Source: Acidobacteriota bacterium | GTDB lineage: Bacteria; Acidobacteriota; Terriglobia; Acidiferrales; UBA7541 | Assembly: GCA_013289955.1 (NCBI GenBank) | Contig: JABCYZ010000002.1 | Location: 372,001-436,000, forward strand | DNA length: 64,000 nt | Reading direction: 5' to 3' | Shown: in pieces, positions 7,019 to 48,753 of the stretch | Position numbering within the stretch: the stretch's first letter is position 1 | Layout of the letters: every line of letters begins with the position of its first letter | The notes under the pieces: model-generated | Database searches by the model: none | Told to the model about the DNA's origin: nothing | The model's input: only the letters and a program-made list of their open reading frames with translations | Made by a program: the position numbers and the translations under genes

Positions 7019-8443
7019 ATGGGGGATGAGGCAAGGAGTGCAGTGCGCGCGATGGAGCCGCTCGAGCGCAAGGACCGTGTGCTGATTGTCGAGGACGAAG
7101 ACAATGCGCGCAAAGGCTACGAGCAGCTGCTGCAAAGATGGGGCTTTGATGTCCTTGGCGTGGCTACGGCGGAAGAGGCGCTCGCAAAATTCGGAAGCTA
7201 TCAACCGGACACGTTGATCGCCGACGTCGAGTTGCCCGGCATGAACGGCCTGGACCTGCTCAAACAGCTCGGCCCCGAGCTGCTGGATGTTCCCGCCGTA
7301 ATCATCACCGGAAAAGGAAGCGAAGAACGCGCCGTGGCGGCCATCGAGTCCGGAGCGTTCTGGTACATCGAAAAACCGCTGAAGGGGCCCGTGCTGAGGG
7401 CGTTGCTGGACCGCGCGCTGAGCAAGGCTCGCGATGCGCGACAGCTCGTCGTACTGCAACGCCAGTTGCGCGAGGCCGGTCGGCTGGGCGAGTTGGTGGG
7501 CGCCTCGAAGCCGATGCAGGAAGTCATGCGCATTGTAGAGATGGCTGCGCCTAGCTCGGCGTCCGTGCTCATCACGGGAGAGACAGGTTCCGGTAAAGAG
7601 ATTGTCGCGCGGACCATTCACAAACTTTCCCCGCGCGCCAACGGACCGTTTGTCCCTATCAACTGCTCCGCCATCCCCGAAACACTCATGGAGAGCGAGA
7701 TTTTCGGCCACGAAAGGGGCGCGTTCACGGGCGCGGCCGAGCGGCGCATCGGTTGCTTTGAACTTGCGGATGCCGGTACCTTGCTGCTCGACGAAATCGG
7801 AGAGATGCCCGCTCCGACACAAGCAAAACTTCTGCGCGTGCTCGAAGACCGCAAAGTGCGTCGGCTGGGAAGCAAGAGCGAGACGCCCGTGGATGTGCGC
7901 GTGCTGGCGGCGACAAACAAGGATCCCGAGAAAGCCGTGTCCGGCGGCGAGCTGCGCCAGGACTTGTATTTTCGCCTGAATGTATTCCATATCAATCTGC
8001 CGCCGCTGCGCGAACATAAGGACGATATTCCGCTGCTGGTCGAGCACATTTTGCGGGACGTGAACACCAAGCATGGGAAACATGTGCGGGGCATCGGCGC
8101 CGAAGTGCTGGATATCTTCATGAGCCACACCTGGCCGGGAAATATTCGAGAGCTGCGGAACATCCTCGAGCGCGCCGCGATCATGTGCGAGAAAGAACTG
8201 ATCACCCGAGCATGTCTGCCCGGGGAGTTTGGCAAGACCTCCGCGAAGAACCCCAGCGATCTGTCTTCGATCAAGTTTCCGGTTGGGACAACCGTCGACG
8301 CGATGGAGCGAGAGCTCATCCTGCAAACTCTGAACGCCACGGGAAACAACAAAACGCGCGCCGCCGAATTGCTCGCTATCAGCCTCAAGACTCTTCACAA
8401 TAAGCTAAAAGAATACGGCGGCGAACGCGCCGAGGCAGAGTAG
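7019..8443 (+). CDS. Sigma-54-dependent response regulator (NtrC family)
   Basis: The 474-residue protein has the full NtrC architecture. The receiver domain spans about residues 20-130 (VLIVEDED, phospho-acceptor Asp69 in IADVELPGMNG, conserved Lys in EKPL). The AAA+ domain carries Walker A GETGSGKE, an intact GAFTGA loop for sigma-54 contact, and Walker B LLLDEIGEMP. A Fis-type helix-turn-helix (TRAAELLAISLKTLHNKL) is at the C-terminus. The ATG at 7019 has GGGAGAGG upstream; an open frame extends 69 codons further upstream but lacks family similarity and overlaps the terminator. The histidine kinase gene follows after 9 nt, so the two are probably cognate. Confidence 0.93.
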   Translation: MGDEARSAVRAMEPLERKDRVLIVEDEDNARKGYEQLLQRWGFDVLGVATAEEALAKFGSYQPDTLIADVELPGMNGLDLLKQLGPELLDVPAVIITGKGSEERAVAAIESGAFWYIEKPLKGPVLRALLDRALSKARDARQLVVLQRQLREAGRLGELVGASKPMQEVMRIVEMAAPSSASVLITGETGSGKEIVARTIHKLSPRANGPFVPINCSAIPETLMESEIFGHERGAFTGAAERRIGCFELADAGTLLLDEIGEMPAPTQAKLLRVLEDRKVRRLGSKSETPVDVRVLAATNKDPEKAVSGGELRQDLYFRLNVFHINLPPLREHKDDIPLLVEHILRDVNTKHGKHVRGIGAEVLDIFMSHTWPGNIRELRNILERAAIMCEKELITRACLPGEFGKTSAKNPSDLSSIKFPVGTTVDAMERELILQTLNATGNNKTRAAELLAISLKTLHNKLKEYGGERAEAE

Positions 8444-8452
8444 GAATCCGCG

Positions 8453-10315
8453 ATGCAGCTACGGCTGCGAACAAAGCTCACGCTGGTGATGTCGGGTCTC
8501 GTGCTGCTCGTGGTCGCGGCCGTCTCTGGCGTCTACTTCGCGCTAGTCCTGCAGCAAGTTCTGGATCAGAGCGAAAGAAAGGCAACCGAGATCGCAAAAA
8601 GCACCTTTTACCAGGTAGCGGAAGCGGTGGATGAAGCGAAGGCGCAGGGATGGCGGCCGGAGTCAAACGCGCCTGAGGACATTCGCGACTATGTAGCTTA
8701 TGCGCTCGGCGCAAGCCAAGGGTTGCAGACTCAGCTGCAGGCAGAAATTGTCTCATCTGGCATTTATGAAGTTTCGATCACCGATCACGAGGGGAAGGTT
8801 CTGGCGTCAGCCCCGGACAAATCCATAGTCGGAAAATTTGCCATGCGCCGGCTCCCACTTTCGCAACTCACGCAGCGGGGTATTTTGCATCAATTGAAGG
8901 TTCTTGCCGGGACTCCGGGAATTTACGAATACCAATATCAATTCAGCGTTGTCGGCGGCGAACCTTACGAAGTGCGAGTGGCAGTTTCTACAGGGTTCTT
9001 GCTGCAGATGGAGATTTTGCCGATTGTCAGGCAACTCGGCACGATCGGCCTGCTGGCCCTGGTGATTTCCACTGTTCTCGCGGCCGTGGTCAGCCGGGCA
9101 GCGCTGGCGCCACTGGCTCGCATCTCCGAGCAATTGGATCGCATCTCCGCCGGACTGTACGACGCGCCCATACCGGAGGTGCGGGGATTTGTCGGAAGCA
9201 GCGATGAACTGGGCCAAGTCAGCCGAAAGATTACGCAGGTTGGCCAGCAACTCCGCGGCGTGCACGAAATTTTCAGCACCATGCGCGAAAACATGAACTC
9301 CGTCATGGCTGGTCTCGAAGACGGCTTGCTGCTTTTTACGCGAGACGCGCGCGCGGTGATGGTCAGCCCTGCCGCCGAAAAATTCCTCGGCGCGCCAGCG
9401 GGCCAGTTTCTTGGCAGGCGCGTGACCGAAATATTCCCGGCCGGCCACCCGCTGCGGGACGCGTTGAACCTTGAAGGCGACGAATTGCGGGAGGTCGCCG
9501 CCGAAATAGACTTGAAGACGACAGAGGGGGGGAAACGCGTCAGCGTAACCGTGCAGGCGATTCAAGAGGATGGCGAACGGATGGGCGCGCTGCTGACGTT
9601 GCGCGATCTCGATTCGATCGAGAGCATCAACACGCAGCTGCAAGTGAGCGAGCGGCTGGCCGCTCTCGGACGCATCACCGCAGGAGTCGCGCATGAAGTC
9701 AAGAATCCTCTCAACTCCATGCGGCTGTGGCTGGAGAATCTGAAGGAGTCCCTGCCGCCGGATTCGGACAGCAGCTCGAAACAAGCCGTGCAGGTACTGG
9801 ACAAGGAGATCGACCGACTCGATGCCGTCGTCAAGCGCTTTCTCGATTTTACGCGCCCCATGGACGTGCGGCTCGAACCCACTCAGCTTGCGGAATTACT
9901 CAGGGAGGTTCTCGAAATAGCGCAGCCGCAAATGCAAAAAGCCAACATTCAGGTAGCACAGCTTTTGCCGATCGATGTGCCCGAAGTGTACGTCGATCGC
10001 GCATTGCTCAAGCAGGCCGTGCTGAATCTTGTGCTGAACGCCGGGGAATCCATGCCGAGCGGCGGACAATTGCGGCTGGTGCTGAGCCGCCGCGGTGAAA
10101 TGGCTGAAATCAGCATTGCCGACACCGGGAAAGGGATTCCGCCCGAGCACCGCCAGAAAATTTTCCAGCTCTTTTTCACCACACGTCCGGGCGGAAGCGG
10201 CATCGGGCTGGCCAGCACGTTTCGCATTGTGCAGCTTCTCAACGGTTCGATAGACTTTACGACCGAAGTCGGCAAAGGTACGACGTTTCGAATCGAGCTG
10301 CCGCTCGCGGCCTGA
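8453..10315 (+). CDS. Membrane sensor histidine kinase (NtrB/ZraS-like)
   Basis: This 620-residue kinase has a first membrane helix at about residues 9-30, a periplasmic sensor region of about 150 residues, a second helix near 190-212, a HAMP linker, a PAS-like domain and the catalytic core. The H-box reads RITAGVAHEVKNPLNSMRL, the N-box NLVLNAGESMPSGG, and the G-boxes ADTGKGIPPEH and GGSGIGLAS. It should phosphorylate the regulator encoded 9 nt upstream. Its TGA overlaps the ATG of the downstream lipoprotein gene (TGATG), which points to coupled translation. The signal sensed is unknown. Confidence 0.93.
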   Translation: MQLRLRTKLTLVMSGLVLLVVAAVSGVYFALVLQQVLDQSERKATEIAKSTFYQVAEAVDEAKAQGWRPESNAPEDIRDYVAYALGASQGLQTQLQAEIVSSGIYEVSITDHEGKVLASAPDKSIVGKFAMRRLPLSQLTQRGILHQLKVLAGTPGIYEYQYQFSVVGGEPYEVRVAVSTGFLLQMEILPIVRQLGTIGLLALVISTVLAAVVSRAALAPLARISEQLDRISAGLYDAPIPEVRGFVGSSDELGQVSRKITQVGQQLRGVHEIFSTMRENMNSVMAGLEDGLLLFTRDARAVMVSPAAEKFLGAPAGQFLGRRVTEIFPAGHPLRDALNLEGDELREVAAEIDLKTTEGGKRVSVTVQAIQEDGERMGALLTLRDLDSIESINTQLQVSERLAALGRITAGVAHEVKNPLNSMRLWLENLKESLPPDSDSSSKQAVQVLDKEIDRLDAVVKRFLDFTRPMDVRLEPTQLAELLREVLEIAQPQMQKANIQVAQLLPIDVPEVYVDRALLKQAVLNLVLNAGESMPSGGQLRLVLSRRGEMAEISIADTGKGIPPEHRQKIFQLFFTTRPGGSGIGLASTFRIVQLLNGSIDFTTEVGKGTTFRIELPLAA

Positions 10316-10938
10316 TGCGGAGTGCTTTGCAGCCCCTATTGAACATGACGGAAACCTCGGCTCAACCCCAGTTTGCCGTGAAGCGAAATAGTTTCCGAGC
10401 CATCCTTGGCGTGCTGGGTTTCTCGGCAATTTTGCTGGGCGGCTGTGCCGCTCGAAAAAAGCCTTCCATCCCGTGGAGCACCGCAGTGCTCGTGCGTCCG
10501 ATCCTGCCGCAACAACCTTCGCCAAGAGCAGTCATCGAAGTCCCTCCGCCCGATCTTGGACGGGAAACCCCGCCTCCACCCGCGCCGCTGGTCACGCGAA
10601 CTCCCCCCGCTCCCGTGAGGCCGCGCAGCCTTGCGCCGCCTGCGAATCCAAGTGCGCCGGCGGGAAAGCCTAATACTCCGCAAATTGTTCCCGAATTGTC
10701 GACGCAGGAATCGGCCTCGTTGCGACGCGAAACGGATCAGAGTTTGACGGCGGCCGAACATAACCTTGCTGCGACTGCCGGGAAATCGCTGAACGCCGCG
10801 CAATCCGACCTTGCTTCGAAAGTGCGCAGCTTTATTTCGGATGCGCAAGAAGCCGGCCGGGCGGGCGACTGGGTGCGGGCTCGCGATTTGGCGAAAAAGG
10901 CTGAGGTTTTGTCCGAAGAGCTGGTCGGATCGAAGTAG
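10315..10938 (+). CDS. Proline-rich lipoprotein encoded with the two-component system
   Basis: The frame opens at an ATG overlapping the kinase stop; an in-frame ATG at 10345 is an alternative start. A hydrophobic stretch ending LLGGCAARK is a lipobox, so the mature protein is lipid-anchored at Cys. A Pro-rich linker (about residues 60-110) precedes an alpha-helical C-terminal region (SLRRETDQSLTAAEHNL to the end) that resembles a helical hairpin with a short TPR-like end (AGDWVRARDLAKKAEVL). No known domain is recognised. Being third in a regulator-kinase operon, it could be an envelope accessory sensor or simply a target gene. Confidence 0.75.
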   Translation: MRSALQPLLNMTETSAQPQFAVKRNSFRAILGVLGFSAILLGGCAARKKPSIPWSTAVLVRPILPQQPSPRAVIEVPPPDLGRETPPPPAPLVTRTPPAPVRPRSLAPPANPSAPAGKPNTPQIVPELSTQESASLRRETDQSLTAAEHNLAATAGKSLNAAQSDLASKVRSFISDAQEAGRAGDWVRARDLAKKAEVLSEELVGSK

Positions 10939-11085
10939 TCCCGATCAGCCTCGTCTCTCCGGCTCTTAGAAGATGCATGCCCCTCGATAAGCAAAAAACC
11001 ACATCAAACCGGCTGACAGTGTCGAGGATGGATGGGAGGTTGGTCTCAACATGAACCCGGCACACAGATGCGTTAAGATGGCCGC

Positions 11086-12213
11086 ATGAAGAAGTTTGAT
11101 GTGGCCATCGCGGGCGGAGGATTGATCGGCGGATCCATTGCGCTCGAACTCGCGCGCGCCGGCCTGCGCATCGGATTGTTCGACCGCCAGGAACCCGGAC
11201 AGGAAGCCTCCTGGGCGGGAGCGGGAATTCTCTCCCCGGCACCGGAAAGTGCGGCCATGATTTCGCTCGTGCCGCTGGCCAAGGCCAGTATGGCGATTTA
11301 TCCGGAATTCGTGCGCATGGTGGAAGAAATTTCGGGCCAAAACGTGGGTTACCGCCCGAAGGGCACGCTGCAAGCGATTTTCACGCCGGATGCGCGGGAG
11401 CTCAGCACCGTGATCGCTCTGCATCACGGACTGGGGCTGAAAGCGGAGCCGCTCCGTGCCGAGGACGCCCGCAAACTGGAACCGGCGCTCAGCGAGGAGC
11501 TCGAAGCAGCCGTGCTGCGCCCGGAGGAAGCCTCCGTCGATAATCGTGCTCTAACACAAGCCGTCCTCGAGGCAGCGCTGCGAACTGGCGTGCAGTTTTT
11601 TGCCGGATGCGGGGTGGAAGGCATCTCTCGTGCAGGCGGTCGATGCGTGGGCCTGAAATTGAATAATGAAAAGATCGAGGCAGAGTGGACGATCATCGCC
11701 GCTGGCTGTTTTTCCGCAAACATCGAAGGCGTAGCGGCGTATGCGCCGGTACGGCCAGCGAAGGGTCAAATGATTGCTCTTCGCGCGGATGATTTGAACA
11801 TCGAGAAGGTCCTCTGGTCAGAGAAAATTTATCTTGTTCCGCGGAATGACGGAAGAATTCTTGCCGGCGCAACCGTGGAGTACACCGGTTTCGAAAAAGG
11901 ATTGACCGCCGGGGGCCTCGAAAAAATTCTTGCCGGAACGCTCGAGTTGTCGCCAGGCCTAGCGAACGCTCGCGTCGAAGAAACTTGGGCCGGCCTCCGG
12001 CCAGATTCCCCCGATCATTTGCCGATTCTCGGACCAACAGAGCTCGACGGTTTGTTGATTGCGACAGGGCATTTTCGCGGCGGGATACTCCTAACACCCA
12101 TCACGGCGCAGCTCGTGCGCGAATGGGTGACGCAACAACGCGCCAGCGTGGATTGGGACCGCTTCAGCCCTATGCGCTTTCAGTCCGCCTCCGCGCACAG
12201 AGCGCCCGCCTAG
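11086..12213 (+). CDS. thiO: Glycine oxidase / FAD-dependent amine oxidoreductase ThiO
   Basis: The 375-residue flavoprotein starts with a dinucleotide-binding motif, VAIAGGGLIGGSIALELARAG, and has ASWAGAGILSP, EEASVDNRALTQA, an IIAAGCFS loop and a C-terminal ETWAGLRPDSPDHLPILGP segment followed by ATGHFRGGILLTP. This pattern is typical of ThiO, which oxidises glycine to iminoacetate for the thiazole ring of thiamine. No other thi gene and no TPP riboswitch is visible nearby, so a broader D-amino-acid or glycine oxidase role is possible. The length matches the family. Confidence 0.88.
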   Translation: MKKFDVAIAGGGLIGGSIALELARAGLRIGLFDRQEPGQEASWAGAGILSPAPESAAMISLVPLAKASMAIYPEFVRMVEEISGQNVGYRPKGTLQAIFTPDARELSTVIALHHGLGLKAEPLRAEDARKLEPALSEELEAAVLRPEEASVDNRALTQAVLEAALRTGVQFFAGCGVEGISRAGGRCVGLKLNNEKIEAEWTIIAAGCFSANIEGVAAYAPVRPAKGQMIALRADDLNIEKVLWSEKIYLVPRNDGRILAGATVEYTGFEKGLTAGGLEKILAGTLELSPGLANARVEETWAGLRPDSPDHLPILGPTELDGLLIATGHFRGGILLTPITAQLVREWVTQQRASVDWDRFSPMRFQSASAHRAPA

Positions 12214-42142: not shown

Positions 42143-43558
42143 CTATCGCAGCATCGGGCCGATCCGCTGCAGCGAAGCGGCAAAGTGGTCGGCGTTGTAC
42201 GCCGAAGGGTTTTCGAGCTGCCGGAAAAGCTCGTTGATACCGGCGCGAACCTCGTCGGCGTTTCCAGGTTTCGCGTCCTTGCTGTAGGCGATATACAACG
42301 AATCCATGGCCATCGCCGCTTGCTCCGCGGCGCGCTCATCGGCAAGCGATATATTCTCGGCATCGTCCGAGATCCATTGCAACGTGCGCAGCACGGTAGC
42401 TCGGTCGTATGGCATCGCCGCGAGCCTCTCGGCAAAACGCTGCGCCACCGGCGCGGCAGCGGAAGCCGACGACGCGACGACACCGCGGTCCGGACTTAGC
42501 TTGGACATTTCGCCCGACACCTCGAGCAGTCTGCGATCGAGTTCTTCGGCGCCGGCGGAATCGATTTGTTTGGCGAGCAAGCGAAACACGATATAGCGCG
42601 AACTGTTCCATGCAGGATCGCCAGGACGCCGTCCGGCGAATCCATGCTCCTGCCGCCAGCTGTCTTTGGCGGGCGCGAGCGCGTGGTGGCACGCAAAACA
42701 GGAAAGCTCAGAGTATTCGGGCCACACTTCCTTTTTGTCGAAGCGCTCGCCCTTTGCGCGCCACGTCAGCCGCTCCATCTCGGCACGAAGCTGCACCGCT
42801 TGGCCCGTGCTCCAATCGCGCACGCCGGCCCACGACGCGTCTTCCACCGGTTTGCCGGGCGTCGATTCGCGCGGCGATTTCCAGTGGCGCGGCATCACCG
42901 CGGAAAATGAATCCAACTCGAAAAATAGATCCGGATGGCCGGCGGCGATCATTTCGTGATCGACGAATTTTTCTTTCGTGCCGAGATGGCACTCGAGACA
43001 TTTTTCGGTTCGGTGAATCACGTCGCGCGTATCGCGCATGCCCAGCGCGACCGATTTTTCGTGCGGCCAGTCGCGGGTAGTGTGCGGTCCCAGCCAGGCA
43101 GACGCGGGTCCGTGGCAATTTTCGCAGGAGACGCCTTCGGACAATTCGAACGGACGGCCGCGCTGCTCCGGCGTCGTATAGAGGGCATGACAAGCCAAAC
43201 ATTTCGGCGCTTCTTCGGCTTTCGCATTGAGTTTGAGGATACGGGCGATGCGTTCCCCGATGTCTCCGGTCAGATCTTGATACGCGCGGCTGTGCCTGTC
43301 TTTGACAATCCAGGTGGAGTATTCGTTTTGGAGAATGCGGCTGCCGGCTACGGGTTTGACGCTGCCGTGGCAGCTCGTGGCGGCGCAGGAGCCGGGCCCA
43401 ATGTATTTCACGGGTTCGCCGTTCGAATCGCCCTTTGACTCGGCAGACCTGGAGGCACCGCCTTCGGTCGCGGATAGCCGAAGGGCGGGCGCAAAAGGCA
43501 GAAGAAGCGCAGCGCACAGCGCCGCGTGCAGCCAATGGGGTTTGGGGGCAATTCGCAT
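42143..43558 (-). CDS. Secreted multiheme cytochrome c (cytochrome c554-like)
   Basis: From the ATG at 43558 the 471-residue protein has a signal peptide (WLHAALCAALLLPFAPALRLSA). Its heme sites are four CxxCH motifs (CLACH, CENCH, CLECH, CFACH) plus one CxxxxCH (CAATSCH), and further His residues (DRHSRAY, DHEMIAAGHPD) could be distal ligands. The layout matches multiheme cytochrome c554-related proteins; the C-terminal 150 residues are helical and heme-free. It is transcribed away from the NADH-FeS gene, sharing a 202-bp divergent regulatory region with it, so a functional link to that operon is likely. Confidence 0.85.
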   Translation of the reverse strand: MRIAPKPHWLHAALCAALLLPFAPALRLSATEGGASRSAESKGDSNGEPVKYIGPGSCAATSCHGSVKPVAGSRILQNEYSTWIVKDRHSRAYQDLTGDIGERIARILKLNAKAEEAPKCLACHALYTTPEQRGRPFELSEGVSCENCHGPASAWLGPHTTRDWPHEKSVALGMRDTRDVIHRTEKCLECHLGTKEKFVDHEMIAAGHPDLFFELDSFSAVMPRHWKSPRESTPGKPVEDASWAGVRDWSTGQAVQLRAEMERLTWRAKGERFDKKEVWPEYSELSCFACHHALAPAKDSWRQEHGFAGRRPGDPAWNSSRYIVFRLLAKQIDSAGAEELDRRLLEVSGEMSKLSPDRGVVASSASAAAPVAQRFAERLAAMPYDRATVLRTLQWISDDAENISLADERAAEQAAMAMDSLYIAYSKDAKPGNADEVRAGINELFRQLENPSAYNADHFAASLQRIGPMLR

Positions 43559-43610
43559 TCGCGATGACGGATTCGTTCGCCCAATTATCGGGTGGAAGCT
43601 GCGTCGGATG

Positions 43611-43647
43611 CGTTGTCTTTTTCGCGGCGTGGCGCGAAAAGGCAACG
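43611..43647. promoter_or_regulatory. Long imperfect dyad in the divergent region of the redox locus
   Basis: Left arm CGTTGTCTTTTTCGCG (43611-43626) and right arm CGCGAAAAGGCAACG (43633-43647) are inverted with one mismatch and one bulged base around GCGTGG. The dyad is centred about 63 bp before the predicted start of the NuoF-type gene, a position typical of upstream activator sites. It could instead form an RNA hairpin in the leader of the divergent cytochrome gene. Confidence 0.5.
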
Positions 43648-45615: not shown

Positions 45616-47787
45616 GTGAGCACGATTAGCCGATTGCCGGAGTTGGTGGAGATCACGATCGATGGACGACCGGTCCGGGTGGCCGCGGGGACGAGTGTGT
45701 TTGATGCGGCGCGGATGAATGGGACGGCGATTCCTACGCTTTGCCATCTGCAGAATGAGACGCCGGTGGGGGTGTGCCGGCTTTGCGTGGTAGACACCGG
45801 TGCGCGAGTGCTCGCGGCGTCGTGCGTGCGGCCCGTCGAGCCGGGTATGAAGGTGGTGACGAATTCCGAAAAAGTGTTGTCCGCGCGAAAGACTTTGCTG
45901 GAACTTTTGATGGCCGATCATCCTTCGCCTTGCGCGCGGCAGGAAAAATCCGGGGATTGCGAGCTGGAGACCTTGGCGCAGGCGGCGGGTGTTACGCAGC
46001 CGCGTTTTCTGAAGCGCACGGTTTCGCGTGGGATCGATGATTCTTCGCTGGCCATTGCCGTGGATCACGACGCGTGCATTTTGTGCGACCGGTGCATCCG
46101 CGGCTGCAACGAAATCAAAAACAATTTTGTGCTTGGCCGGATGGGGAAGGGCTATTCGGCGGGAATTGCCTTCGATTTGAACGCAGCGATGGGGGATTCG
46201 ACATGTATTTCGTGCGGGGAGTGCATGGTTTCCTGCCCCACCGGCGCGTTGACCAACAAGACCGTTGTGGGCACATCCATTGCAGCGGGGTCAGACGCAG
46301 AGGGGTTCGAAGCGGAAGAGCTTTTGCAGCTGCCGGTGTTCAAGGGCGTTTCGGGGACATTTCTTGAGCTGAATCGCGGGGCAATCGTCAAACGGAGATT
46401 TCGTCCAGGCGAGATTATTTGCCGCGAGGGCGAATTCGGTTCGACGGCCTTTTATATTCTGGAAGGCAAAGCGCGCGTTTCGCTTTCTGCGCCGATTGCG
46501 CACGTAAAAACACAGGGCGGCGCGAAAGGGCTTTTCAAGAAGCTTACCAGTACGCTCGCGGCACGGGACGCGGACGTCCGCTCCGAGGAGACTCGCGACA
46601 GAACGATCCCTATCGATGCGTCCGTGGACCTCGCCTATGGAAATCCGGTAGCGGAACTCGGTTCCGGCGATTTGTTCGGCGAGATGACATGCATGAATTT
46701 CTACCCGCGGTCGGCGACGGTGATTGCGGAGACGGATGTCGTGGCATTCGAGATGTTGAGAAACGTGCTCGACATCATGATGAAGAACAAATCGTTCCGC
46801 GCCCAGATCGACCAGAACTACCGCAAGCGGGCGCTGGAAAACCACTTGCGCGGCGTGCCCATGTTTGCGGATCTTTCGCCGGATTTTATCGAGCATTTGA
46901 AGGGCAGCGTGGAACTGCAGCGATTCGCACCTGGACAAATCATCGCCCGGCAGGGCGATGCGGCGGGGAGTTTTTATCTGGTGCGCATCGGGTTTGTGAA
47001 GATTTCGGAAACATATCCTGGTGGAGAGCTGGTGCTAGCGTATCTATCGCGCGGAGATTATTTCGGAGAAATTGGCTTGCTGGGAGGCGGCGTGCGGACC
47101 GCGACTTGCACGGCGCTGGATCATGTGGAATTGGTGCGCATCTCCGGCGGCGATTTCCGCGACATGGTGGAGCGCTTCCCGAGCGTGCGCCAAGGGCTGG
47201 AAGCTGTGGCTGCAGAGCGCGCCACCCAGAATCAGCAACGCATGCAGACGGTTCGCAGCGTGCCCATCGACCAGTTTCTTTCGCAAGGTTTGATGGAAGC
47301 GCAGAGCCTGCTGATTCTCGATTTGAACAGTTGCACCCGCTGCGACGCTTGTGTGAACGCCTGCGCCGACGCGCACGACGGAGTCACGCGGCTGGTGCGC
47401 GAGGGTTTGCGCTTCGAACAGTATCTGGTGGCGACTTCTTGCCGGCAGTGCCGCGATCCGCTGTGCATGGTGGGTTGTCCGGTGGGATCGATCCGGCGGC
47501 GAAATTCGCTGGAAGTGATCATCGAAGATTGGTGCATCGGTTGCGGTTTGTGCGCGCGGAATTGTCCTTATGGAAATATTAATCTGCATCCTTTTGACGT
47601 GATGGTGGACGACCTGGAACGGCCGGGGCGGAAGAAAGCCGTCGTTAAGCAGAAGGCCACTTCGTGCGATTTGTGCACGCATTTGAAGGAGCCGAGCTGC
47701 GTCTATGCTTGTCCGCACGATGCAGCGCATCGCGTGGATCCGCGGACGTTTTTTTCGGAGATGCTGGGCGGAGGCAGTTCGAAGTGA
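45616..47787 (+). CDS. Ferredoxin-type electron-transfer protein with two cyclic-nucleotide-binding domains
   Basis: The 723-residue protein joins three modules. Residues 1-215 are NuoG/HoxU-like: [2Fe-2S] ligands Cys43, 54, 57 and 70; a remnant His/Cys cluster site (His102, Cys106, Gln109 where Cys is expected, Cys115); and two [4Fe-4S] motifs (Cys154-164, Cys197-207). Residues about 237-395 and 416-525 are CNB domains with the phosphate-binding Glu and Arg retained (GDLFGEM...PRSATV; GDYFGEI...VRTATC). Residues 565-710 are a HybA/DmsB-like ferredoxin with four [4Fe-4S] motifs. There is no helix-turn-helix, so it is not a Crp-type regulator. GTG start with GCGAGGA. I infer a ligand-modulated electron wire. 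Confidence 0.9.
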   Translation: MSTISRLPELVEITIDGRPVRVAAGTSVFDAARMNGTAIPTLCHLQNETPVGVCRLCVVDTGARVLAASCVRPVEPGMKVVTNSEKVLSARKTLLELLMADHPSPCARQEKSGDCELETLAQAAGVTQPRFLKRTVSRGIDDSSLAIAVDHDACILCDRCIRGCNEIKNNFVLGRMGKGYSAGIAFDLNAAMGDSTCISCGECMVSCPTGALTNKTVVGTSIAAGSDAEGFEAEELLQLPVFKGVSGTFLELNRGAIVKRRFRPGEIICREGEFGSTAFYILEGKARVSLSAPIAHVKTQGGAKGLFKKLTSTLAARDADVRSEETRDRTIPIDASVDLAYGNPVAELGSGDLFGEMTCMNFYPRSATVIAETDVVAFEMLRNVLDIMMKNKSFRAQIDQNYRKRALENHLRGVPMFADLSPDFIEHLKGSVELQRFAPGQIIARQGDAAGSFYLVRIGFVKISETYPGGELVLAYLSRGDYFGEIGLLGGGVRTATCTALDHVELVRISGGDFRDMVERFPSVRQGLEAVAAERATQNQQRMQTVRSVPIDQFLSQGLMEAQSLLILDLNSCTRCDACVNACADAHDGVTRLVREGLRFEQYLVATSCRQCRDPLCMVGCPVGSIRRRNSLEVIIEDWCIGCGLCARNCPYGNINLHPFDVMVDDLERPGRKKAVVKQKATSCDLCTHLKEPSCVYACPHDAAHRVDPRTFFSEMLGGGSSK

Positions 47788-47805: not shown

Positions 47806-48753
47806 TTGCGAATTGACAGGACACAACGCGGGTGGGCAATCGCATCGCTGATTATGATTGCGGTGTTCACGGCCGTCTACGTGGCGTATGCGGCGCGCGC
47901 ACCGCAAGGACCGCGTGGCGGCAGCGCATTCGGTTTGACGTTCGGAGTGATTGGATTCGGCTTCATGATTGTCGCGGCGCTGCTGGGCGCGCGAAAGCGC
48001 GTGCCGACCTGGCGCATCGGCCGCGCGCAGGCGTGGATGCGCGGTCATTTGTGGCTGGGTCTACTGAGCTTGCCGGTGATTCTATTTCATGGGGGATTTC
48101 ATTTCGGCGGGACGCTGACGAGCGTGTTGATGTGGCTGTTGATCATTACGGTGGTGAGCGGACTCTTTGGCGCGGAGCTGCAACACTACGTGCCGCGCGT
48201 GATGACCTCGGACGTGAAGCTGGAAACGATTTATGACGAAATCGGGAATGTGCGGAAGCTGTTGCGCGAGGAGGCGGACCGCGCGGTCGAAACGGTTTGT
48301 GGGCCGATCGGGGTCGGTAAATCGGCGAGCGAGGAAGTCTTGCGCGCGGGCGGGCTCAGCGCGGCACGGCCCATGTCTCTGACGGGCAGCCTAGGAGCGG
48401 TGGCCGCTGCCGCGGAGACGGCGGTACTGACCGAAGAGGAGTGCGCGCCGCTGCGGCAGTTCTATCTGAGCGAGATGCGGCCGTTTCTCGAGCAGCCGCG
48501 GGTCCGCGGATCGCGGCTGGGCGATGCGGATAAAGCGCACGGAGCGTTCAGCGGATTGCGGACGTTGCTGCCGCCGCCGGCGCAAGCTACGGTAGAGGAC
48601 TTGGAAGATATTTGCGATGAGGCGCGGCAACTTGTGCGGCAGGAGCGGCTTCATCATTTGTTACACGGGTGGCTGCTCGTGCACATTCCGCTCTCGCTGG
48701 CGCTGATTATCTTGGGTGCGGTGCATGCGGTGATGGCTTTACGCTATTCATGA
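47806..48753 (+). CDS. Cytochrome-b-like membrane protein of the redox operon
   Basis: The 315-residue protein (TTG start, GCGAGGA upstream, 18 bp after the previous stop) has four N-terminal membrane helices (about residues 10-30, 42-62, 80-99, 104-125), a cytoplasmic or periplasmic domain of about 155 residues, and a fifth helix near 287-311. Histidines in or next to helices (His81, His95, His99, His127; His283, 284, 287, 293, 307) are placed as in heme-b membrane subunits. It would carry electrons across the membrane between the FeS protein and the periplasmic decaheme cytochrome. No exact family is recognised. Confidence 0.75.
   Translation: MRIDRTQRGWAIASLIMIAVFTAVYVAYAARAPQGPRGGSAFGLTFGVIGFGFMIVAALLGARKRVPTWRIGRAQAWMRGHLWLGLLSLPVILFHGGFHFGGTLTSVLMWLLIITVVSGLFGAELQHYVPRVMTSDVKLETIYDEIGNVRKLLREEADRAVETVCGPIGVGKSASEEVLRAGGLSAARPMSLTGSLGAVAAAAETAVLTEEECAPLRQFYLSEMRPFLEQPRVRGSRLGDADKAHGAFSGLRTLLPPPAQATVEDLEDICDEARQLVRQERLHHLLHGWLLVHIPLSLALIILGAVHAVMALRYS

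Follow-up and report, generated by a model that had tools for sequence, protein, structure and literature searches.

The window is a stretch of 64,000 nucleotides from contig JABCYZ010000002.1 of a soil Acidobacteriota bacterium. An open reading frame on its forward strand (45616-47787), starting with a GTG codon, encodes a protein of 723 residues in which a HoxU/NuoG-N ferredoxin is followed by two CNB domains and a 16-Cys ferredoxin of the HybA/DmsB type. The first-pass annotation had described a three-part fusion here, and matches to Pfam, NCBIfam and PDB entries bear out both its coordinates and its domain order. The gene is the second of a conserved operon that runs from a NuoE-NuoF fusion through the CNB fusion to a membrane cytochrome b and a decahaem c7 cytochrome, with spacings of 19 bases to the cytochrome b gene and 16 more to the decahaem gene (Table 1). 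This operon context, absent from the earlier annotation, tells the purpose of the electron chain.

Table 1. Genes, domains and motifs of the CNB-fusion operon, in positions of the window, with the evidence or the occurrence among the 81 loci compared.
Feature	Position	Strand	Evidence or occurrence
Divergent c554-like multihaem cytochrome	42143..43645	-	4 CXXCH + one CX4CH; 65/81 loci
NuoE-NuoF fusion (NADH/FMN module), 572 aa	43761..45479	+	adjoins CNB fusion gene in 78/81 loci
HoxU/NuoG-N domain, residues 11-217	45646..46266	+	Pfam, NCBIfam, PDB match, Cys alignment
CNB1, residues 248-412	46357..46851	+	Pfam, alignment, model
CNB1 phosphate-binding cassette FGEMTCMNFYPRSAT, residues 354-368	46675..46719	+	canonical; alignment
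CNB2, residues 414-546, C-helix at end, no HTH	46855..47253	+	Pfam, model
CNB2 phosphate-binding cassette FGEIGLLGGGVRTAT, residues 483-497	47062..47106	+	canonical; alignment
HybA/DmsB/HydN-like ferredoxin, residues 562-712	47299..47751	+	16 Cys, four [4Fe-4S] clusters
Membrane cytochrome b (b561-like)	47806..48753	+	conserved His pairs; weak Pfam match; 77/81 loci
Decahaem c7-type cytochrome, N-terminal hydrophobic helix	48769..50214	+	10 CXXCH; 74/81 loci

The N-terminal module is HoxU/HydA1/NuoG-like (NCBIfam PRK07569, 8.5e-50; residues 13-218 against HydA1 of PDB 7q4v, 2.6e-48), with Pfam families Fer2_4 at residues 11-84 and NADH-G_4Fe-4S_3 at 91-130; the HoxU model itself gives 169 bits, below its cut-off of 333. 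The module holds the ligands of a [2Fe-2S] cluster (C43, C54, C57 and C70) and of two [4Fe-4S] clusters (C154/157/160/164 and C197/200/203/207), all of them nearly invariant in the 79 aligned members. Its HisCys3 site, of a kind known from NuoG and HydA, is short of one Cys. Here (residues 102-115, window 45919-45960) H102, C106 and C115 are invariant among the 79 aligned full-length members from which all residue conservation was counted, and Q, E or H replaces the Cys at position 109 in 79/79, so that this cluster is altered or lost throughout the family. Fer4 families match the fusion at residues 197-216 and 609-703. The HybA-type part keeps 16/16 Cys in nearly all members, with its four cluster motifs present, and scores sub-threshold against the HydN, DmsB and AegA equivalogs of NCBIfam. 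The "up to seven" iron-sulfur sites annotated earlier thus correspond to seven full Cys sets (one 2Fe-2S and two 4Fe-4S, then four 4Fe-4S), the eighth, HisCys3, being incomplete.

Like the NADH modules of HoxEFU, HydABC and NuoEFG, the operon combines a NuoE-NuoF fusion with HoxU/NuoG-N clusters; unlike them, it lacks one Cys of the HisCys3 site, and its chain leads through CNB-CNB-HybA to a terminal cytochrome b rather than to a hydrogenase, a formate dehydrogenase or a quinone site. The C-terminal part has four 4Fe-4S motifs in the same order as 16-Cys ferredoxins of the HybA/DmsB/HydN type. It differs from these in lying behind two CNB domains, in having a b561-like cytochrome rather than an NrfD-type protein as its partner, and in that no export signal was seen at the start of the fusion sequence.

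Among the neighbours, the NuoE-NuoF fusion reaches 464.8 of the 558.65 bits required by the NuoF equivalog, and its Pfam domains Complex1_51K, NADH_4Fe-4S and 2Fe-2S_thioredx are all above cut-off. In the cytochrome b, two His pairs (H81/H95 and H293/H307) stand 14 residues apart on two helices, the first pair invariant and the second near-invariant; judged from the alignment, this pattern is of the di-haem, bis-histidine type. The Pfam Ni_hydr_CYTB match attains only 17.6 of 30.1 bits, so that the fold family is not established. Genes for an LVIVD-repeat protein with 9-10 haems (about 31/81 loci) and for a CarboxypepD_reg-domain protein, a putative barrel (about 24/81), are less constant companions; the host genome carries its own LVIVD protein on another contig, with 68% identity (L113, about 8215-12064, minus strand). 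LVIVD proteins, the putative barrel and an HbpS-like protein recur together near the operon, for example at L040 (12462-16220, minus strand), and could possibly form an uncharacterised outer-membrane electron conduit. A gene for a flavoprotein resembling dihydrolipoamide dehydrogenase and SthA adjoins the c554 gene in five loci (L024, L025, L028, L033 and L049) and perhaps links NADPH balance to the CNB-fusion system. No phage matches were found.

A scan of GTDB genome contigs returned 134 stretches encoding relatives, and 80 loci together with the window's own were analysed. All 81 encode a homologous open reading frame with 55-100% identity, most of them at full length, and their hosts are mostly Acidobacteriota, with Planctomycetota and Rokubacteria-labelled bins besides. 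A fusion by chance or through an assembly artefact is ruled out by the homologous frame shared by the 81 loci, and confinement to one lineage by the Planctomycetota members and the wider CNB-CNB-HybA relatives. Carriers make up 27/81 genomes among relatives of the host and 3/149 in a sample spread evenly over the phylum. Note that three loci are titled Bordetella parapertussis (L084), Betaproteobacteria (L082) and Rhodanobacteraceae (L074); their operons are 61-91% identical to acidobacterial ones, and the sequences are probably mislabelled or misbinned.

Both CNB domains carry the G-E...R-S/T-A pattern of the phosphate-binding cassette. The fusion scores 129 bits against PF00027 (cut-off 27.5), with the cNMP_binding match (5e-38) split over three stretches. 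In CNB1, E356, R365, S366 and A367 are each present in 79/79 full-length homologues; in CNB2, E485 is kept in 78/79, R494 in 77/79 and A496 in 79/79. Conservation is higher in the cassettes than elsewhere in the same domains (p = 6e-6 for CNB1 and 0.008 for CNB2). The pattern annotated from the single sequence is canonical and nearly invariant across the family, and the degenerate pockets that would make the domains structural only are not seen at the sequence level in the window's subfamily, which retains both cassettes, unlike some relatives. The CNB1 arginine is missing in L140, L151, L153, L155 and L158, and CNB2 is without a canonical cassette in L098-L102 and L127-L137, which means that the architecture does not require both pockets to function. 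The earlier remark that neither domain is followed by a helix-turn-helix also stands, there being no HTH match and the C-helix of CNB2 continuing into the HybA ferredoxin; a transcription regulator of the Crp/Fnr type is ruled out on this ground.

Modelled on its own, the CNB pair has a pLDDT of 74.5. CNB2 superposes on cGMP- and cAMP-bound CNB domains, matching the cGMP-bound CNB-B of PKG II with Z 20.3 and an rmsd of 2.0 A over 145 residues. The pair also matches the PKA/PKG regulatory tandems, but the two-domain superpositions have a large rmsd, which leaves the relative placing of CNB1 and CNB2 unsupported. These are the closest solved tandems and share two consecutive CNB domains with canonical cassettes; the fusion differs from them in its CNB1, which has an insertion, and in having an iron-sulfur protein of electron transfer as its effector. 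This insertion of some 50 residues (about 291-343, window 46486-46644) is variable, holds the conserved motifs HVKT and IPID, and has no confident model. Mycobacterial Pat (Rv0998; PDB 4avb/4avc) and the family 2B encapsulin, both recovered through NCBIfam matches, likewise place a CNB domain on an effector that does not bind DNA. The AlphaFold model of the whole protein (pLDDT 62.5, mostly below 50 in the iron-sulfur parts) is too poor for placing the CNB domains relative to the clusters.

Within the CNB1 cassette, C359 (window 46690-46692) is invariant (79/79) and could be a redox-sensitive spot. Crp-fold proteins such as CooA and CprK sense something other than a cyclic nucleotide, and the CNB domains might in the same way respond to redox through C359 or to another small ligand. 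The invariance of this Cys and the loss of the CNB1 arginine in some relatives fit such a cue, which we nevertheless regard as quite improbable, given that the ribose- and phosphate-holding Glu and Arg are retained and that C359 is missing from relatives with intact cassettes (e.g., L092, L093 and L109).

A source of ligand is suggested by the neighbourhood. At 15/81 loci there is a class III cyclase gene no more than 8 kb away from the fusion, against 0.8 expected from 45 cyclase matches in the 69.6 Mb of 12 carrier genomes, although these are not 15 independent events because the carriers are related, the effective number being nearer four to seven. At least four arrangements occur: a CHASE2-cyclase after the decahaem gene (the L024 group), a cyclase directly before the EF gene (L041), a cyclase upstream beyond the HbpS-like gene (L067-L069, L071, L074 and L083), and an FHA-GAF-cyclase upstream (L037 and L045). 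An FHA-cyclase frame ends 34 bases before the fusion in one planctomycete, and a TPR-cyclase gene lies nearby at another locus. No cyclase is found within the flanks examined in the other 66/81 loci. At the level of genomes, a class III cyclase is present in 14/14 carriers examined, against a baseline of 66/99 Acidobacteriota. A search for CpdA-like genes in the acidobacterial and planctomycete flanks gave one weak match only, in L022. It could be argued that the CNB domains bind no ligand and serve as structural spacers or for dimerisation, since several relatives keep the fold of CNB2 without its cassette; we find this improbable, as both cassettes rank with the best-conserved stretches of the window's family and genes for cyclases and phosphodiesterases lie clustered around the system.

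From the parts, their conservation, the operon, its modularity and the cyclase linkage, we infer a route for the electrons, a direction, a ligand and a gate. With slightly better than even confidence, we propose a cyclic-nucleotide-controlled conduit from NADH to the periplasm, in which the fusion would be the cytoplasmic hub of an inner-membrane NADH:periplasmic-cytochrome oxidoreductase. NADH would reduce FMN in the NuoE-NuoF subunit, and electrons would pass through the HoxU-like clusters and the four HybA-type clusters to the two-haem cytochrome b in the membrane, then to the periplasmic decahaem cytochrome c and probably to an outer relay of c554 and LVIVD multihaem proteins. The class III cyclases would supply cAMP or cGMP, and the CNB domains, on binding the cyclic nucleotide, would permit or block the flow, so that a respiratory electron path may be under the direct on/off control of a second messenger. 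A switch would have its reason in energetics: electrons moving outward from NADH cross from the negative to the positive face of the membrane and run downhill in both redox and membrane potential, and a path left open would be a wasteful leak of NADH as well as of membrane potential.

In layout, the arrangement recalls the inner-membrane proteins CbcL, MtoC and MtrH, which take part in extracellular electron transfer and in which a di-haem b membrane part is joined to a multihaem c part (PMC6295460); the operon differs from these in having two genes, in the presence of CNB domains, and in entry through a cytoplasmic ferredoxin where theirs is proposed to be through quinol. Electron flow in either direction has been proposed for CbcL, MtoC and cytochrome-b/multihaem proteins like them (PMC6295460), and the complex could by this analogy run inward, with periplasmic or extracellular donors reducing NAD+. 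We judge inward working to be improbable as well, as transfer from a c-type cytochrome to NAD+ would be opposed by the redox and membrane potentials and no lithotrophic genes are among the recurrent neighbours of the 81 loci.

The fusion belongs to a wider family, present in Acidobacteriota, Planctomycetota and Sphingobium, that is built on a modular core of CNB-CNB-HybA, a cytochrome b and a multihaem c. The module for electron entry varies, being NuoEF/G at the window, a pyridine-nucleotide flavoprotein in Sphingobium, and none or FHA elsewhere. When 149 Planctomycetota genomes were searched with a profile, both the complete fusion and CNB-CNB-HybA proteins without NuoG were recovered; two of the latter bear an FHA domain, and at several of their loci the neighbours are again the genes for the cytochrome b, the decahaem c and the 4-haem protein. 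Planctomycete G149 has a NuoG-less CNB-CNB-HybA gene that an apparent frameshift interrupts within CNB2 (L107, 7135-9218), besides a full fusion elsewhere in the genome. A corresponding search of Planctomycetota and Acidobacteriota, made with a profile of the cytochrome b, gave matches that mostly adjoin CNB-CNB-HybA when they exceed 150 bits; strong matches with no CNB within 1.5 kb are L118, L122, L124, L125, L126 and L144, and the CNB-less distant relatives have proteins of 11-18 haems or a ferredoxin-flavoprotein as partners. HybA and cytochrome b are joined in one polypeptide of about 780-916 residues in nine acidobacterial loci (L152, L154, L156-L159, L162, L165 and L166), most of which include the CNB domains as well.

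In the CNB-HybA tree, rooted by midpoint only, complete fusions group in a single clade (100/99) that also includes some NuoG-less members and is nested within outgroups lacking NuoG, and the presence or absence of NuoG requires two changes. Tree and NuoG-less loci together indicate that the NuoG module was probably attached to a pre-existing CNB-CNB-HybA core. The first-pass annotation had placed the CNB domains inside the electron-transfer chain; their fusion to it is conserved, but an insertion between two halves of the chain is not the best reading, given the NuoG-less proteins and the apparently later addition of NuoG. The domains thus probably belong to the HybA/cytochrome b side and not merely to the gap between NuoG and HybA, and their occurrence without NuoG beside the same cytochromes makes a regulated step at HybA, or from HybA to cytochrome b, likelier than one in that gap only. 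The same retention with HybA and cytochrome b would also make sense if cyclic nucleotides, once bound, controlled how the cytoplasmic subunits assemble, oligomerise or dock to the membrane cytochrome instead of the flow in the finished complex, and the cassette conservation and cyclase linkage fit equally. We consider this unlikely, though a reading to be taken seriously; CNB-CNB-HybA-cytochrome b chains in a single polypeptide (L152, L157 and L158) need no control of docking and argue somewhat against its pure form.

Overall, the proposed NADH-to-periplasm conduit has in its favour the cluster Cys, the operon, the His pairs, the conserved cassettes, the CNB2 superposition, the cyclase linkage, the CNB-CNB-HybA core kept while the entry module changes, and the CpdA-like gene of the Sphingobium operon. 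Against it stand the cyclase-free loci, the cassette losses in relatives, the CNB-less operons of distant cytochromes b, the poor whole-protein model and the absent third HisCys3 ligand. More tentatively, and at somewhat less than even chances, we suggest that the family is an undescribed and widespread class, in which a core of CNB-CNB-ferredoxin and cytochrome b has interchangeable entry modules and cAMP or cGMP directly gates the flow from NAD(P)H to periplasmic and extracellular multihaem cytochromes.

Each part of the fusion has known relatives. Fusions of CNB domains with enzymes are known as such, but we know of none in bacteria with an electron-transfer effector, and we found no published description of CNB domains within a respiratory ferredoxin in the open-access literature. 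Second messengers are known to control bacterial respiration mainly via transcription; if the proposed mechanism is true, a cyclic nucleotide would act on the electron carrier itself and so switch NADH oxidation and a membrane-crossing electron path rapidly, and a demonstration of gating would establish a new class of regulated respiratory complex. The carriers are abundant soil Acidobacteriota and Planctomycetota, in which electron export is little understood, and the family offers a concrete test object through natural variants in which each module is retained, missing or exchanged. A workable relative is found in named Sphingobium strains, such as S. herbicidovorans MH. On Sphingobium megaplasmids (L112, AP027315.1 358353-377570; L114, NZ_CP020539.1), a Pyr_redox-CNB-CNB-HybA fusion gene is followed by genes for a cytochrome b, an FHA-decahaem cytochrome and a CpdA/SpdA-like phosphodiesterase, the last matching below curated cut-offs, and a 10-haem LVIVD protein adjoins the operon.
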